DNA of 64,000 bases from Synechococcus sp. BSA11S (lineage in GTDB: Bacteria > Cyanobacteriota > Cyanobacteriia > PCC-6307 > Cyanobiaceae), in NCBI RefSeq assembly GCF_014224355.1, contig NZ_VNWP01000006.1:1-64000 (forward strand). The letters run 5' to 3'. The notes under the pieces were generated by a model that was given only the letters and a program-made list of their open reading frames with translations, was not told where the DNA came from and ran no database searches. Position numbers and translations under genes: made by a program. Positions 3,354 through 46,315 of the stretch are shown here, piece after piece (within the stretch, counting starts at the first letter, position 1; each line of letters opens with the position of its first letter).

Positions 3354-3542
3354 ATGTCCTTCAACCCGGAGACGCTGGGTCGTTTTGCTCTACGGGGCCT
3401 CCGCATCGGCGCTAGCACGGTGTCGATCGTGGAGCTGCTGCGCAGCGACTGGACCGGTGGCATCAGTGCCGGGGTGGCCTGGCTGGTGTTTCTGCAGGTG
3501 GAACGGCGGCTGCCGCCACCTACAGAGGAAGCCGAGGGCTGA
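3354..3542 (+). CDS. Small hypothetical protein
   Basis: A 62-residue frame, starting MSFNPETLGRFALRGLRIG, with one moderately hydrophobic helix (GISAGVAWLVFLQV) and an acidic end. It is followed at 3646-3670 by a strong hairpin terminator on the same strand, which supports a real short transcript. No family recognised; short length keeps confidence modest. Confidence 0.45.
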   Translation: MSFNPETLGRFALRGLRIGASTVSIVELLRSDWTGGISAGVAWLVFLQVERRLPPPTEEAEG

Positions 3543-3645
3543 TCAGGTCCTCACCAATGGCTCGTCGTCACCGACCTTGACTTGATGCGGGCGATCGGTC
3601 GGATCTGCAGCGGGGATGCCGCCGGGGCCAGGGGCATCCAGTAGG

Positions 3646-3670
3646 AAGGCGCCCCATGTGGGGGCGCCTT
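3646..3670 (+). terminator. Strong hairpin terminator
   Basis: Perfect 10-bp arms AAGGCGCCCC and GGGGCGCCTT around an ATGTG loop, followed by a short T run. It lies about 100 bp after the 62-residue frame and could work in both directions. Confidence 0.7.
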
Positions 3671-4412
3671 TGCACCGGTTGCGAGTGGTCACCTTGGCAG
3701 TTGGGGTGCCCTCGGTCGGGTGTCTGGGTTCCAACGATCAGCCTGTCAGGGCCTGGCAGGTAAGGATTCAGTCACGACGCTGGGGAGAGATGCTCGGGGC
3801 TTGACCTCCTCAGTTGTGACCGATGCCCGGGTTATGCAGCCCGGGATTTCAACGGACGGGAACCAGATGTGGCGTATGACTCAACACGTACGGGGTGGCG
3901 TTCTCGCTGCGCCACCGAGACGACGTTCAACAGCAATGGCACCTCCTTTTGCCTAAACCGGCTCTGGCGAACACTGGCCGGACTCTCTGGGAGGGAAAGG
4001 TTGAGTTGGCTCCCATTCCTTCCCTCAACTACATAGTATTTCCACCAGCAGCAGGTGGAGGCGTCACGGCGTTCCTGTTCCCGTACCTCCCATGGCCTCT
4101 GCGCTCTGGCGGCGAACGATGACCCCACATCAACCCTTCGCCAGCCCATCAATGGGCACCCTGTGTGTTTCCTCCCCCTTCGATCGCTCCGGTCGCCTCG
4201 ACCAGCAGGCCAGGAGGCTGACAGATCCGGTGTGAACGCGTCCTGAGACGTCCTGTTCGGTGCTGACAAAAGGCTGTGCATCGCCCCCGTGGATGCTGAA
4301 CCTCGTGCATCATGAAGGCTGATGTTTCCTGGTTCCAGGGTGCTGGGTGGGAGATGTCTCTGGTGATCAGTCTGACTGGGCAGATCATCTGCTTCCATCG
4401 CTTCTCTCCTTG
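3671..4412. other. Intergenic, no gene seen
   Basis: About 740 bases with only short overlapping frames of unconvincing composition on both strands. It precedes the acyl-CoA synthetase gene and probably carries its promoter, but no clear promoter or known repeat was found. It could include decayed coding sequence. Confidence 0.4.
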
Positions 4413-41265: not shown

Positions 41266-41526
41266 TCAGGGTCCCCAACCCTTCAGAGCCCAGACCAGTT
41301 CCCCGGCGTCCCAGCCCAGGTTGTCGAACAGGGCCACGGCCCTGTCATCGTCGCTCTCCAGCAGCAGGTGGGCGAAACTCTTCACCAGTTCAGCCGGTGT
41401 GAAGGTGATTCCCACCTCGCCGGCCAGCTCGGCCAGTTCTTCAGCTTTGAGGGCTCGTTTGACCTTCTGCTGCAGGTCGTCATCAGCTTTGACCTGTTCG
41501 ATGAACTGTTCAACGGCTGGAAGCAT
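41266..41526 (-). CDS. Nif11-like protein A
   Basis: An 86-residue protein starting MLPAVEQFIEQVKADDDLQQ. The N-terminal helix pattern FIEQVKADDDLQQKVKRALKAEELAELAGEVGITFTPAEL is the Nif11/nitrile-hydratase-like leader signature. In RiPP precursors this leader ends in a Gly-Gly cleavage site followed by a Cys/Ser/Thr-rich core. Here there is no such site. Instead the C-terminus ends FDNLGWDAGELVWALKGWGP, nearly the same as protein B at 46043-46315. No lanthionine synthetase or peptidase-type exporter is nearby. It converges on the zinc-ribbon gene with 1 bp between. Confidence 0.75.
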   Translation of the reverse strand: MLPAVEQFIEQVKADDDLQQKVKRALKAEELAELAGEVGITFTPAELVKSFAHLLLESDDDRAVALFDNLGWDAGELVWALKGWGP

Positions 41527-41891
41527 CAGTGCCACAGATCTGAGCTGATCCTTCAGCCTCCTGCAGCACCCTGGATCTGTCAATCCAATCGACTCAACGT
41601 CACTTGCCTGCAATTGAATCCGCTCAAGAGCGAGTCAATCAATGGAGCACCACCAGGTGACAAGGTGAGAGGCGCGACAATGGTGGAGACGACTCACCAA
41701 TCAGGACGGGGAGCATGTCATCAAGGAGATGGATCTGAAGTTCAGGCAAGGTGGGCTGACTGAGGTGATGGAATTGGTGTTGGGAGAAGTTTTGCCGGGC
41801 CTCCGATGCCTGCGAAACGCCACCTCAGAAACGAATCGCGGTGTCCTTATTCCCCGTTATGGGTGTTGTATTCAGACCGGCCCGGCTTGGC
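41527..41891. other. Intergenic, no gene seen
   Basis: AT-richer than the surrounding genome, with a few short frames of no recognisable content. It probably contains the promoter of Nif11-like gene A. Confidence 0.35.
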
Positions 41892-42452
41892 TTAGCGATA
41901 AGGTCTGGCTGAGTCGTTGAACATAAATGTAGGCAACTTTGAGCCGCCAGTTACATGGCCAATGCCCGCCAGGGCAAGGAAGCCTGCGATCAATGCAGCC
42001 ACGAGTGTCTTGTATCCTGTAATTTGATTTAGCTTTTGACTTGCCTGTTCTTTCATGCATTCTGAGCGAAACCCAGGATCCTCAAGAAGTTCTTCCACAA
42101 GCGCCTGGTTTTCCTCGTAGTGACGCTCGACATCGTTTCTGTACTCTTTCCAGTCAGCATGACCCAGGGCCCACTGTTTCCAGCTTGTCCATACCTGCAT
42201 CGCAGCAATTTTCTCTTGATTCTTTAAGTGAGCTCCGCCGAATGAAGCAGCAGGCCCCATCGCGCCTAAGAAGGCGCCGCTGAGAGCATCTCCAGCAGTT
42301 GTTCCACGAGGCGGGGTTACGTCAACACCATGCTTGCGAAGAAACATCACTACCATTGAATCAATGGTAGGCATTGGATCAAGAGGTATTCCGCGTTTCT
42401 TGCATAGCCGTTGCACGGCTGGATCTTCCTTGGTAAGGATTTTTGTCGTCAT
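41892..42452 (-). CDS. Orphan membrane-anchored hypothetical protein
   Basis: A 186-residue protein with lower GC and AT-ending codons unlike its neighbours. The N-terminal part (AVQRLCKKRGIPLDPMPTID...FLRKHGVDVTPPRG) may be a small folded domain. A Gly/Ala segment (GDALSGAFLGAMGPAASFGG), a charged helical region (WKEYRNDVERHYEENQALVEELLEDPGF) and a C-terminal membrane helix (TLVAALIAGFLALAGIGHVTGG) follow. No family recognised. Composition suggests recent acquisition. It lies between Nif11-like gene A and an 800-base non-coding stretch. Confidence 0.6.
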   Translation of the reverse strand: MTTKILTKEDPAVQRLCKKRGIPLDPMPTIDSMVVMFLRKHGVDVTPPRGTTAGDALSGAFLGAMGPAASFGGAHLKNQEKIAAMQVWTSWKQWALGHADWKEYRNDVERHYEENQALVEELLEDPGFRSECMKEQASQKLNQITGYKTLVAALIAGFLALAGIGHVTGGSKLPTFMFNDSARPYR

Positions 42453-43292
42453 GGCCCTGAGGTGAGGTTGCTGAAGAGGTCGCCCCCTCCCACCTCATCA
42501 CCATCCCCCAGGTGCCGCCGTCACCACATCCCCAGGATGGGGGATCTTTCGGAGGAGCATCACCAGGCGAAGCCGTGGCTGGTCAAACGGTCGTTCCCAG
42601 TGAAGCTGCTGGAGCTCCGCAACCCTGCCAAGGGCTCCAGCAAAGTTGAACTGGAAAACGGCACATGCCGATTCGCTGGCCCCTCTTGCAGTGATGGCGA
42701 CAGTCGCGAGCATCCGCTCCTGACCCGCTTGGTCGACGAAAGCCGTGAAAATGTCAGCTGATCTCCCTGAGGCCTTGGCCGCCTTGGGCCTGAGAACCAC
42801 GCCCAGAACCCGAGAGGATCTGGCCCGGGGTGGTGCTGCTGGCCCTCAGCTGGGCGCGGCGCATGAGTCGAGCGACTCGGTGGCTGCCGATCGAACTGCT
42901 GGCCTGCTGAACGGAGCTCATGGTGAACCCGGGGGGGGGGGGGGCCGCAGAAGCCGCGGTGCTGCATGAACACACTCCGAATGTCTGCGGTGATCACGGC
43001 GTTGTCGGCCGCCCGCTTTCACGCACCTCCCACCGCTGCCGCCAGGCGTGGTAGCCGCTGCGGACCACCCCAGACGCGGTTCAGCCATGAGCACCGTATA
43101 ATTGGTATTCACTAGGTTCAGCAGCTAGACATTAAATCAACCGACCAAGTCGGCATGCTTCGAACCAGCTGCTGTCTCATTGGAGCGAGCCCTCCAGCCA
43201 GGACTAAGCTCGTGACTGCATCACTCGCAATTCAATTTGATTAATAGGCATCATACTTGCCCGCACTCAGCGATGTCGAGCATCCCCAAGAC
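42453..43292. other. Gene-poor stretch with a poly-G tract
   Basis: About 840 bases with short frames on both strands and no recognised protein. It holds a 14-base G run at 42931-42944. Some frames (for example minus strand 42498-42800, with DIFTAFVDQAGQERMLATVAI) have a protein-like composition and may be remnants. AT content rises after 43090. Confidence 0.4.
42931..42944 (+). repeat. Run of 14 G
   Basis: An uninterrupted guanine tract in the gene-poor stretch upstream of the acyltransferase gene, outside any supported coding sequence. Confidence 0.9.
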
Positions 43293-44087
43293 ATGATAGG
43301 AAGACAAATCAGATCTCCATTGTTAAGCCCTTTGGCAGCCAGCGCCGTTGCATCAGCTCCTGAGCTGATTGCCGACCTGCCGCTCCATCTCTCACGGCTT
43401 CTCATTAGTGCCGCAGGCACGAAAGCTACTTATCATTTCATCGAGCGAGTTCCCACTGTTAATCGCATCATCCTTGTCAGCAACCATCGCAGCTTGCTGG
43501 ACGCTCCATTGCTGATGGCAGCACTGAACCGGCCAATACGTTTTGCATGCCACTACTACATGAGTCGGGTGCCAGGCTTGAGGGAGATGGTCTCAGCTAT
43601 GGGGGCATTTCCTCTCGATGCACCACAAAAAAGACACAAGGATTTTTTTCAGAAGGCCGTCAGTCTTCTGGACGAGAAAGAAGTTGTCGGGATCTTTCCA
43701 GAGGGTGCAGAACCCATGATTCAGTTATCGACACCAAATCGAATCAGGTCCTTCCACCGCGGTTTTGCCCACCTCGCCATGCGGGGTTCAGTTGGCGATG
43801 TGGCCATCCTGCCAGTGGCCATCGCTTCGCTTCAGGAGAAGACAAGCAACCTCGCCCCACTCAGCCTCTTCAAACTGGTTGACCCATCAGAACCCTTGTT
43901 TGATCGTGGTGGCTGGCATCACAGCGTTCGTTATCAGCATGTCCGCGTACTTGCGGGACACCCCATATGGGTCAAAGACAAGCAAAGAGCAGAGTATTAC
44001 GGGCGACAAGGTGGCTTGCTTGCACGAGAGCTTACCAACTCTTGCCGTAATCAGATTATCAAACTGATACGCGAAGGCTGCTCGTAA
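43293..44087 (+). CDS. Lysophospholipid acyltransferase (PlsC-type)
   Basis: A 264-residue acyltransferase. The catalytic block is NHRSLLDAPL (H65, D70; the HX4D motif), and the acceptor block is VVGIFPEGAEP (about 131-142). It also has a C-terminal RAEYYGRQGGLLARELTNSCR helix. The family transfers acyl groups from acyl-ACP or CoA to lysophosphatidate or other hydroxyls. The ATG giving MIGRQIRSPL is preferred; a TTG 12 codons earlier is possible. The hydrolase gene begins 15 bp later on the same strand. Codon usage is AT-richer than in core genes. Confidence 0.82.
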   Translation: MIGRQIRSPLLSPLAASAVASAPELIADLPLHLSRLLISAAGTKATYHFIERVPTVNRIILVSNHRSLLDAPLLMAALNRPIRFACHYYMSRVPGLREMVSAMGAFPLDAPQKRHKDFFQKAVSLLDEKEVVGIFPEGAEPMIQLSTPNRIRSFHRGFAHLAMRGSVGDVAILPVAIASLQEKTSNLAPLSLFKLVDPSEPLFDRGGWHHSVRYQHVRVLAGHPIWVKDKQRAEYYGRQGGLLARELTNSCRNQIIKLIREGCS

Positions 44088-44102
44088 CTGGCTCTTTCCT
44101 CC

Positions 44103-44924
44103 ATGCCACTTTTGGTTAATCCACTGTCATCTCCCCTTGTCGGATCTCTCAAGCCGTCTCGTCCCTTGTTTATCTATCTGCCAGGGATGGATGGAACTGG
44201 AGCACTACTCAGGCCTCAGATTTCAGGGTTGAAGGCCTCATTTGACATCCGTTGCCTTTCCATTCCCTCGGATGACTTGGCCGGCTGGGATATGCTTGTT
44301 GCGCAAACAGCTCGATTGATCGCCAGTGAGCAGCGTCAAGTCCAGTCACGTCCCACCTACATTTGCGGTGAATCCTTTGGTGGTTGTCTGGCCCTGCAGC
44401 TTGCAGCTTCCCACCCTTCTCTTTGCCAACATCTGATTCTTGTCAATCCTGCCACCTCTGCTGTCCATCAACCATGGGTCAGCTGGGGAGCATCAATCAC
44501 TCAACGCTTGCCGCCCACCCTGTATCGGCTTTCAGCCTTCGGATTGCTTCCACTCCTGATCCAGCCACAACGGGTTTCTCTGTCTAATCGACAGGCTTTA
44601 TTGCAGGCCATGCAATCAGTTTCCCCCAGAAGTGCTGCCTGGAGGATTTCCCTGCTCACGAAGTTCACCCTTGAGACGTTGCCCTTGGGACGAATCAGGC
44701 AGCCCGTCCTGCTGCTGGCGTCAGGTGCAGACCGGCTCCTTCCATCCCTTGACGAAGCCGGAAGACTCGTTCGACACCTTCCCAATGCGCGTACTGTGCA
44801 GCTACCAGACAGTGGCCACGCTTGCCTTCTGGAATCTGAGGTGAATCTCGGAAAGCTCCTGAAGACAACAGAATTTGATCCTTCCATCCACGCACTTCCC
44901 CTGAGCCTGAGCCACGGGCATTGA
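44103..44924 (+). CDS. Alpha/beta hydrolase, esterase/thioesterase type
   Basis: A 273-residue alpha/beta hydrolase. The oxyanion region is FIYLPGMDGTGALLRPQ, and the nucleophile is S91 in YICGESFGGCLALQLAASHP. The acid is D210 in LLLASGADRLLPSL and the catalytic histidine H239 in LPDSGHACLLE. The PGMDGTG opening with GESFGG resembles the hydrolase half of plant phytyl ester synthases and cyanobacterial Slr2103-like proteins (from memory). It lies 15 bp after the acyltransferase gene, so the pair may together make or recycle acyl esters. Substrate is inference. Confidence 0.82.
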   Translation: MPLLVNPLSSPLVGSLKPSRPLFIYLPGMDGTGALLRPQISGLKASFDIRCLSIPSDDLAGWDMLVAQTARLIASEQRQVQSRPTYICGESFGGCLALQLAASHPSLCQHLILVNPATSAVHQPWVSWGASITQRLPPTLYRLSAFGLLPLLIQPQRVSLSNRQALLQAMQSVSPRSAAWRISLLTKFTLETLPLGRIRQPVLLLASGADRLLPSLDEAGRLVRHLPNARTVQLPDSGHACLLESEVNLGKLLKTTEFDPSIHALPLSLSHGH

Positions 44925-45148
44925 GATGGCCATGTCCACCCTCGTCTGCAAGACGGGCAGGAGCAAGAGAGGGAATCCAAAGGAGGTCGGCAGCAACTCA
45001 CACCGTGTGTATCAGGACGAAAAGTTGATTCACGGTCCCTTGAGCCATAGATAACTTTTGTCAAGCGATATCCGCTTTTGGTCCTCCAGTTTTCGCTGTC
45101 GCCTGACACCTGGTGGCACGCGAACCGGGTGCCGTTCGTGCACGCACC

Positions 45149-45937
45149 TCAGGCCACCACCATGCGCATCATCTCCCCCTGGATGAAGTGTCCATCTGAC
45201 TTCATCAGGTGGCCGTCGGGATCGGTGAAGTTGCGCTGGTTCTTCTTGGTTGGTGTGCCATCAGCACTTCTCTCCAAGCCCCGCCAGGGCATCGCAACCG
45301 CTGCGTGGAAGCCTCCGGCTGCAGACACAAGTCGCTCCAGATCCGGCAGTTCGATGCCGGCGTTTTCGGCGGCCTCGATCGCTTCCTTCCTTGCCGCCTT
45401 GGCCTCTTCTGCTTCCTCCTGACGCCGACGCAGTTCATCGGGAAGATCACTTCCGCGGTTGCCCTTGCTGTAGGGGCGATCCTCCTGGGCATCGAGGATC
45501 TCGACCTTCTGACACAGCCTGAGCACCTGAACAAACAGCCCGGCCAGGGCGCTCAGGTGACGGCGGCTGAAGTCGATGATGCGGCTGTGGTCCGGCTGTT
45601 GGTTGCCGGTCAGGACCCGGAAGGCAGTGTCCTCCCAGCAAGCCTTCTCGATCTAGTGCCTCCGGCACGCTGGCCTGCGGCCAGGTAGGCGAGAGCTTGG
45701 CAGTCCGACGCGGTAGGCATAGAGGAGCAGCACAACCATCATCCGCGGCTCGTACGCCTTCTCACCCCGCGGATCCTTCTGGAGGTCGTAGGAGTGGATC
45801 TCGCGCAGATCCAGCTCAGCCGCCAGATCCAGCAGGAAGAACACCAGATGGTTCTCCGGCAGCCACTCCACCGGTGAGGGCGGAAAAAGCAGGGTCTGCT
45901 CAGGGTTCCAGGGGCGGAAGGACTTGGGCTTGACCAT
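45149..45937 (-). pseudogene. IS1182-type transposase, truncated and interrupted
   Basis: The N-terminal part reads FRPWNPEQTLLFPPSPVEWLPENHLVFFLLDL and RMMVVLLLYAYRVGLPSSR, then a TAG stop at 45653-45655. Beyond it, in the same frame, IEKACWEDTAFRVLTGNQQPDHSRIIDF and LAGLFVQVLRLCQKV follow, then a charged linker and GTPTKKNQRNFTDPDGHLMKSDGHFIQG. There the match ends abruptly, before the second half of the DDE catalytic domain. About 250 of an expected 450 or more residues remain. The stop codon lies at the edge of an inserted double palindrome (45656-45683). The element cannot be mobile by itself. Confidence 0.8.
45656..45683. repeat. Double palindrome inserted in transposase
   Basis: Two adjacent perfect hairpins, GTGCC-TCC-GGCAC and TGGCC-TGC-GGCCA, separated by GC. 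Each has a 5-bp stem and a 3-base loop. They interrupt the otherwise continuous transposase frame with an in-frame segment of about 36 bases that also supplies the TAG stop. Confidence 0.75.
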
Positions 45938-46042
45938 GCCCCGTTCTCTCACCCAGAACCATTGCAATCACAGAGGTCTGGGCGGATTCAGTGCCGTCTG
46001 TGGAGAAGCTGGACCCTGATCTATGTGCGACAGGCTCCCAGG

Positions 46043-46315
46043 TCAGGATCCTGATCCGAGTGATTTGAGGAACCAGAGGATTTCGCCGGCATCCCAGCCC
46101 AGTTCGTCGAACTTCTTCACCACGACCTCATCGGAGCCCTCCATCAGAGTCCGGGCGAAACACCTCACCAGAGAGGCGCTCGAGAACTCCATGCCCCTGG
46201 AGGCAGCGGCTGCCACCACGTCATCGGCGCTGGTGGCCATTTTCACGCTGTGTTGTAGATCCGCGTCGCTGCGCAGGCATGCTACGAATCGATCGATCAC
46301 ATCGTCTGCTGCCAT
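46043..46315 (-). CDS. Nif11-like protein B
   Basis: A 90-residue protein with the N-terminal Nif11-type helix VIDRFVACLRSDADLQHSVKMATSADDVVAAAASRGMEF and a C-terminus FDELGWDAGEILWFLKSLGSGS that mirrors protein A (FDNLGWDAGELVWALK). As in A, no Gly-Gly leader cleavage site or peptide core is present. The two genes lie 4.5 kb apart with the orphan gene, the lipid-enzyme pair and the broken transposase between them. Function unknown; RiPP precursor status is doubtful. Confidence 0.75.
   Translation of the reverse strand: MAADDVIDRFVACLRSDADLQHSVKMATSADDVVAAAASRGMEFSSASLVRCFARTLMEGSDEVVVKKFDELGWDAGEILWFLKSLGSGS

Follow-up and report, generated by a model that had tools for sequence, protein, structure and literature searches.

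A PlsC-type acyltransferase gene (AT), followed on the same strand by an alpha/beta hydrolase gene (HYD) in Synechococcus sp. BSA11S, belongs to a real, old and widely conserved gene pair whose recurrence is not due to chance. We propose that the two genes may form a module, ancestral in cyanobacteria, that handles fatty-acid esters of lipophilic alcohols, with plastoquinol as the most likely acceptor; from protein families, gene order and distribution, we put the probability of this tentative reading at roughly 40%. Coordinates are those of the window, meaning the whole stretch of 64,000 nucleotides that was analyzed, from a host genome (G000) of 2.88 Mb.

The AT-HYD locus

43293..44087, + strand: AT, PlsC-type (PF01553) acyltransferase with HX4D and FPEG motifs, 264 aa (Pfam, motifs, alignment)
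44103..44924, + strand: HYD, alpha/beta hydrolase with Ser91-Asp210-His239, 273 aa, similar to the hydrolase portion of plant phytyl ester synthase (PES) (Pfam, triad, PES comparison)
42001..46000, no strand: low-GC stretch around AT-HYD, 56.9% GC versus 65.6% for the window (GC computation)

Both genes are intact, and 15 bp separate the AT stop from the HYD start. An earlier note, made from the letters alone, had described this spacing, a PlsC-type acyltransferase with HX4D at H65/D70 and FPEGA, a GESFGG alpha/beta hydrolase with a full Ser-Asp-His triad, and an A+T-richer island around them, and each of these observations was confirmed. H65 and D70 lie in NHRSLLD and FPEGA begins at residue 135; AT matched PF01553 (E = 5e-23) as its sole Pfam match at E ≤ 0.01, and H65, D70 and F135-P136-E137-G138 were invariant in an alignment of 16 AT proteins. 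HYD, with Ser91 in GESFGG, Asp210 and His239 all invariant among 14 aligned HYD proteins, matched Abhydrolase_1 (E = 1e-13) among several alpha/beta hydrolase Pfam models. AT has a possible alternative start codon further upstream, a TTG at 43257, and the N-terminal ∼20 residues of AT are common only to its nearest relative among five aligned proteins. Unsaturated comparisons within the genus gave dN/dS of 0.06 to 0.14 for AT and 0.12 to 0.26 for HYD, and both genes look to be under purifying selection. Single-sequence structure models of the two proteins were poor (mean pLDDT of 50 and 32).

GC content was 52.5% in AT and 54.6% in HYD against 65.6% for the window, and third-position GC was ∼53% in the pair versus 81 to 83% in two flanking genes. 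The same pair in four relatives of the genus had 52.3 to 54.3% GC, within fetched surroundings of 57.5 to 60.7%. When ORFs of ≥100 aa in the 30- to 58-kb part of the window were compared with the contexts of G006, G002 and G005, matches were confined to the pair and to ORFs that overlap it, while the G001 context also matched ORFs at 30.0 to 34.6 kb; the neighbors shared with these genus contexts give no sign of function. Low GC and the few neighbors shared among genus members would suit a pair that moved recently, lacks a common pathway and is adjacent only by accident, and that explanation can also point to the four of nine genus genomes without either gene (the other five, host included, carry AT then HYD). 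It is nonetheless strongly disfavored by the wider conservation of the pair, set out below, and we regard it as very improbable.

Nif11-domain peptide genes flank the pair at 41266-41613 (−) and 46043-46315 (−), the first scoring above and the second below the cut-off of the Nif11-leader RiPP model. A 186-aa protein adjoining the pair (41892-42452, −) had no match in Pfam, NCBIfam or PADLOC, and AT and HYD were likewise without a PADLOC match.

Conservation of the pair

The survey sample comprised 339 genomes of the phylum. HYD was registered (cut-off of 1e-20) in 99 of them, with a weakest match of 2.8e-55, and AT in 59 members of the class, with a weakest match of 6.5e-60; weaker AT matches (7.5e-32 to 6.7e-21) in six genomes that do not belong to the class were excluded from the counts. 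HYD was present in 59 of the 59 AT-bearing class members, such that AT without HYD occurred in none, and in 50 of the 59 the two were adjacent on one strand in the order AT then HYD. In the other nine, the genes lay far apart or on separate contigs, a point in favor of incidental proximity that has to be set against the 50. The earlier note had called for this comparison of gene order and would have been contradicted by unrelated families that are not found together elsewhere. This is not what was seen: the order recurred in the genus and in the class, and AT and HYD occur together far beyond this genome. Of 45 pair contexts that were fetched, 43 had their gaps measured (the two outside the measurement include a Gloeobacterales locus, which was read directly): the genes were on the same strand with a median gap of 90 bp, the gap being ≤100 bp in 24 and the genes overlapping in nine. 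In trees of 35 proteins per gene, members of families f1 (that of the host), f7 and f11 each clustered in both the AT and the HYD tree, which again counts against a recently moved pair of incidental neighbors; the three f2 entries did not cluster in the AT tree. Viral contigs scanned with the HYD profile yielded no confirmed relative.

The usual gene order was lptC-NYN-metG | AT-HYD: of the 43 measured contexts, 30 had a divergent metG next to the pair, and in most of these an NYN-domain gene and lptC came next. A different neighbor bears on the possibility that the pair makes or recycles xanthophyll esters, AT adding an acyl group to the CrtR-made hydroxyl and HYD taking it off, in the manner of PES-family proteins in petals. 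crtR lay directly downstream of HYD on the same strand, 81 to 183 bp away, in five genomes of two families (G062, G129, G334, G167 and G180; loci L151, L149, L165, L168 and L173) and 3.3 kb away in one genome of a third family (G205), and was thus near HYD in six of the 45 contexts of the pair, spread over three families, versus 0 of 20 HYD-only contexts. Three of these six crtR copies were scanned and passed the NF045688 cut-off, and the others were 74 to 89% identical to one of those three. A PES2 homologue is also described as controlling xanthophyll esters in Brassica petals (PMC9111173). However, the link to crtR is confined to three families, with four of the six genomes from one of them, and may be leftover gene order; there is no crtR beside the pair in the window, and xanthophyll esters are not among the MFAT lipids reported in the relevant sections of PMC12048435 and PMC11973298. 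We consider xanthophyll esters improbable as the explanation of the pair.

AT and MFAT as putative partners of HYD

Most HYD genomes also carry MFAT (Slr2103 / A0918), an acyltransferase making TAG and phytyl and plastoquinol esters (PMC12048435). An MFAT-specific profile found MFAT in 96 of the 339 genomes; AT, HYD and MFAT occurred together in 46, HYD and MFAT in 40, AT and HYD in 13 (from nine genera), and MFAT alone in 10. None of the 99 HYD genomes lacked both AT and MFAT, and the emptiness of this class was significant by Fisher test (P = 0.0013 for genomes; P = 0.008 for genus-pattern units). In shuffle tests of the same signal, P was 0.007 on 60 genus-pattern units and rose to 0.08 on 33 family-pattern units, and relatedness therefore explains part of it. 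The 46 HYD genomes (host included) that hold both acyltransferases and the 10 with MFAT and no HYD count against AT and MFAT being alternatives. In the host, MFAT is a separate gene with an SHNGG motif (G000:C34:156178-156975).

Gene neighborhoods add a second line of evidence. Contexts were fetched for 20 of the 40 HYD-only genomes, and in 11 of these 20, metG lay beside HYD with AT gone, at a distance of 324 to 2,072 bp. Two MFAT-bearing genomes, G308 and G328, hold a decayed AT copy with stops between metG and an open HYD (L176 5350-5726 and L184 ∼3450-4030); the G308 remnant was matched by 35 of 35 AT queries, while that of G328 is fainter and was matched by 27 of 35. The other 18 HYD-only contexts had no convincing AT remnant (best E of 0.01). 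With AT gone or decayed beside a retained HYD, it follows that HYD can persist in MFAT-bearing genomes after the loss of AT. We take AT and MFAT to be putative alternatives to each other as the partner of HYD in the metabolism of neutral esters, an interchangeability that we infer from these patterns. The G078 MFAT is split in two, with stops in one of the pieces (G078:C81:25967-26619; counted as present, although it may be dead), and an MFAT-like gene is in pieces at G334:C9:57560-58379, with a further G334 copy at C106, suggesting that MFAT decays in places too.

The same patterns bear on ordinary glycerolipid remodeling, in which AT would be an LPAAT-like reacylating enzyme and HYD a membrane-lipid lipase. 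AT reached 54.7 bits against TIGR00530 (1-acylglycerol-3-phosphate acyltransferase), below the cut-off of 102.95; besides PF01553 it matched PRK08633-type acyltransferases, also below the cut-off, and in the PDB it matched only a PlsC (5kym), while HYD matched monoglyceride lipases weakly, among other hydrolases. On the other hand, all six genomes compared hold at least one other PlsC-like match besides or instead of AT that is far weaker (1e-9 to 1e-15), which sets AT apart from those proteins, and wherever AT is absent, HYD is always found with the neutral-lipid enzyme MFAT (40 of 40), which would not be expected under remodeling. We therefore hold remodeling to be somewhat unlikely.

Relation to plant PES

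The earlier note had taken the two genes for a divided PES with its order reversed, and had described PES and Slr2103-like proteins as fusions with the hydrolase first. Plant and algal PES belong to the DAGAT (PF03982) superfamily and, as described for Chlamydomonas PES, have an alpha/beta hydrolase region that precedes the acyl-acceptor pocket (PMC12526585); the reversed order was thus borne out. Slr2103-type MFATs are described as resembling only the acyltransferase domain of PES (PMC12048435), and the claim of a fused Slr2103 is therefore wrong. Comparison was made with an unverified PES1-type sequence, checked by Pfam alone (hydrolase plus DAGAT) and searched in ten genomes. With this query, HYD was the best match in nine of nine HYD-bearing genomes, via query residues 1 to 257; in the host, the match fell on the window gene, with 38% identity over the hydrolase half (E = 1e-26), and the weakest was 4e-10 (G185). 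The C-terminal half of the query matched MFAT weakly (9.7e-5 to 5e-3) as a further match in six of the seven genomes with HYD and MFAT (G000, G205, G151, G022, G064 and G027), missing it in G322, which has MFAT; in G219, which lacks HYD, MFAT was the best match (3.3e-5). AT was not matched by the query in any of the ten genomes. Because this query matches HYD, weakly MFAT and never AT, it is HYD and MFAT, not HYD and AT, that are likely the counterparts of the two PES halves. As a split PES, the pair is thus partly supported: the resemblance of HYD to the PES hydrolase half holds up, but AT, a PF01553 protein, does not correspond to the PES acyltransferase domain, and the earlier reading is half right, with a PES-type hydrolase but a PlsC-type partner in place of a DGAT2-type one.

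These matches indicate that the hydrolase half of PES has a relative in cyanobacteria, and they suggest that plant PES may be a fused version of HYD and MFAT, having arisen through the joining of the two. The literature on PES and MFAT, as represented by titles, abstract openings and selected sections, describes no link of a HYD-type hydrolase to either. The cyanoglobule alpha/beta hydrolase alr1709/sll0553 was considered as a possible HYD and was not equated with it, since it is listed beside At5g19850 and not PES in the relevant part of PMC12923008.

Gloeobacter and Synechococcus elongatus

Gloeobacter violaceus PCC 7421 has no MFAT, yet acyl-plastoquinol (with 16:0 and 18:0 chains) is made there, though not acyl-PQC; the acyltransferase responsible was stated to be still under isolation (PMC12048435). 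A metagenome-assembled genome (MAG), Aphanocapsa lilacina HA4352-LM1, served as proxy for G. violaceus; according to one paper it has been moved to Gloeobacterales, and a second places it with G. violaceus among lineages that branch basally (PMC10156173, PMC11804610), while NCBI taxonomy still places it under Microcystaceae. It carries AT (1e-71) and HYD (2.5e-73), the ATG of HYD overlapping the AT stop, and has no MFAT match at 1e-3, although, for a MAG of unstated completeness, the missing MFAT could be an assembly gap. A GLIC-type ion channel was confirmed in one genome only of the collection, this same MAG (L116), G. violaceus being absent from those results.

G363, which we take to be S. 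elongatus (its KaiA is 100% identical to the query sequence), belongs to the same class as the host. Searches of G363 and its congener G044 found no AT, only two weak PlsC-like matches each (6.8e-13 to 3.6e-10), and G044, which is part of the 339-genome sample, matched neither HYD nor MFAT. In S. elongatus PCC 7942, also without MFAT, acyl-PQH was not found (PMC12048435), although the same paper, citing Tanikawa et al. 2025, elsewhere gives it as “very low” rather than zero; Synechocystis delta-slr2103 is likewise reported to make little or no acyl-plastoquinol. Tanikawa et al. 2025 is further cited as reporting two strains that have acyl-plastoquinol but no slr2103 ortholog, and the passage concerned leaves the second of them unnamed (PMC11973298). 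Should the unnamed strain be S. elongatus, part of the acyl-PQH would have an origin other than AT. To judge from its title, that study reportedly compares “different sets” of DGAT2-like genes among strains, and it may address part of this question already. The distribution of AT-HYD fits a possible role in acyl-plastoquinol synthesis at two points, one by proxy and the other with the caveat on S. elongatus. With the pair present in a Gloeobacterales genome and AT absent from S. elongatus, which has little or no acyl-plastoquinol, the question is directly testable, and AT-HYD is a testable candidate for the MFAT-independent acyl-plastoquinol synthase of Gloeobacter.

Proposed role of the pair

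As an ester module, the pair would work as follows. With acyl-ACP or acyl-CoA as donor and the standard HX4D mechanism, AT would acylate a hydroxyl group on a hydrophobic molecule, plastoquinol being the likeliest, with a saturated chain. The same pool would be the target of HYD, which could be a lipase freeing membrane-lipid acyl groups or an esterase recycling the product. In many lineages, a DGAT2-type MFAT (Slr2103) would have joined or replaced AT, with HYD kept. As to the acceptor, the Gloeobacter data favor plastoquinol, and the crtR neighbor and petal PES2 homologue favor a xanthophyll; that the notable neighbor is crtR and no plastoquinone gene speaks against the plastoquinol reading. 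In E. coli, where no cyanobacterial HYD is present, MFAT yields TAG and phytyl esters (PMC12048435); HYD is therefore not needed for transfer by MFAT and more likely supplies acyl groups or turns over esters than takes part in the transfer itself. Given that the host has both AT-HYD and MFAT, the pair may be redundant there or more specific. A more far-reaching version would have AT with HYD as both the MFAT-independent synthase of Gloeobacter and the ancestral PES/MFAT system, the hydrolase remaining constant while the acyltransferase was exchanged (PlsC to DGAT2 type) and then fused in plants; this we consider rather unlikely.

Comparison with known systems

PlsC and lysophosphatidate acyltransferases share PF01553, HX4D and FPEG with AT; AT differs from them in falling short of the TIGR00530 cut-off, in its distance from the PlsC-like proteins of the same genomes, and in being tied to HYD. 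MFAT, like AT, is an acyltransferase that co-occurs with HYD (in 86 of the 99 HYD genomes), but is DGAT2-like, with an HNGG motif invariant in 15 aligned proteins, and is not described with a hydrolase domain. AT has NHRSLLD and no PF03982 match at E ≤ 0.01, and the two are remote relatives (25% over 140 aa; profile E = 5.5e-6). The PES1/PES2 (ELT) family, which makes phytyl esters and TAG and in petals affects xanthophyll esters (PMC12526585, PMC9111173), is like AT-HYD in combining a HYD-related alpha/beta hydrolase, as judged from the unverified sequence, with an acyltransferase. In PES, however, these form a single polypeptide with the hydrolase first and a PF03982 acyltransferase, whereas AT-HYD consists of two genes with the acyltransferase first and of PlsC type.
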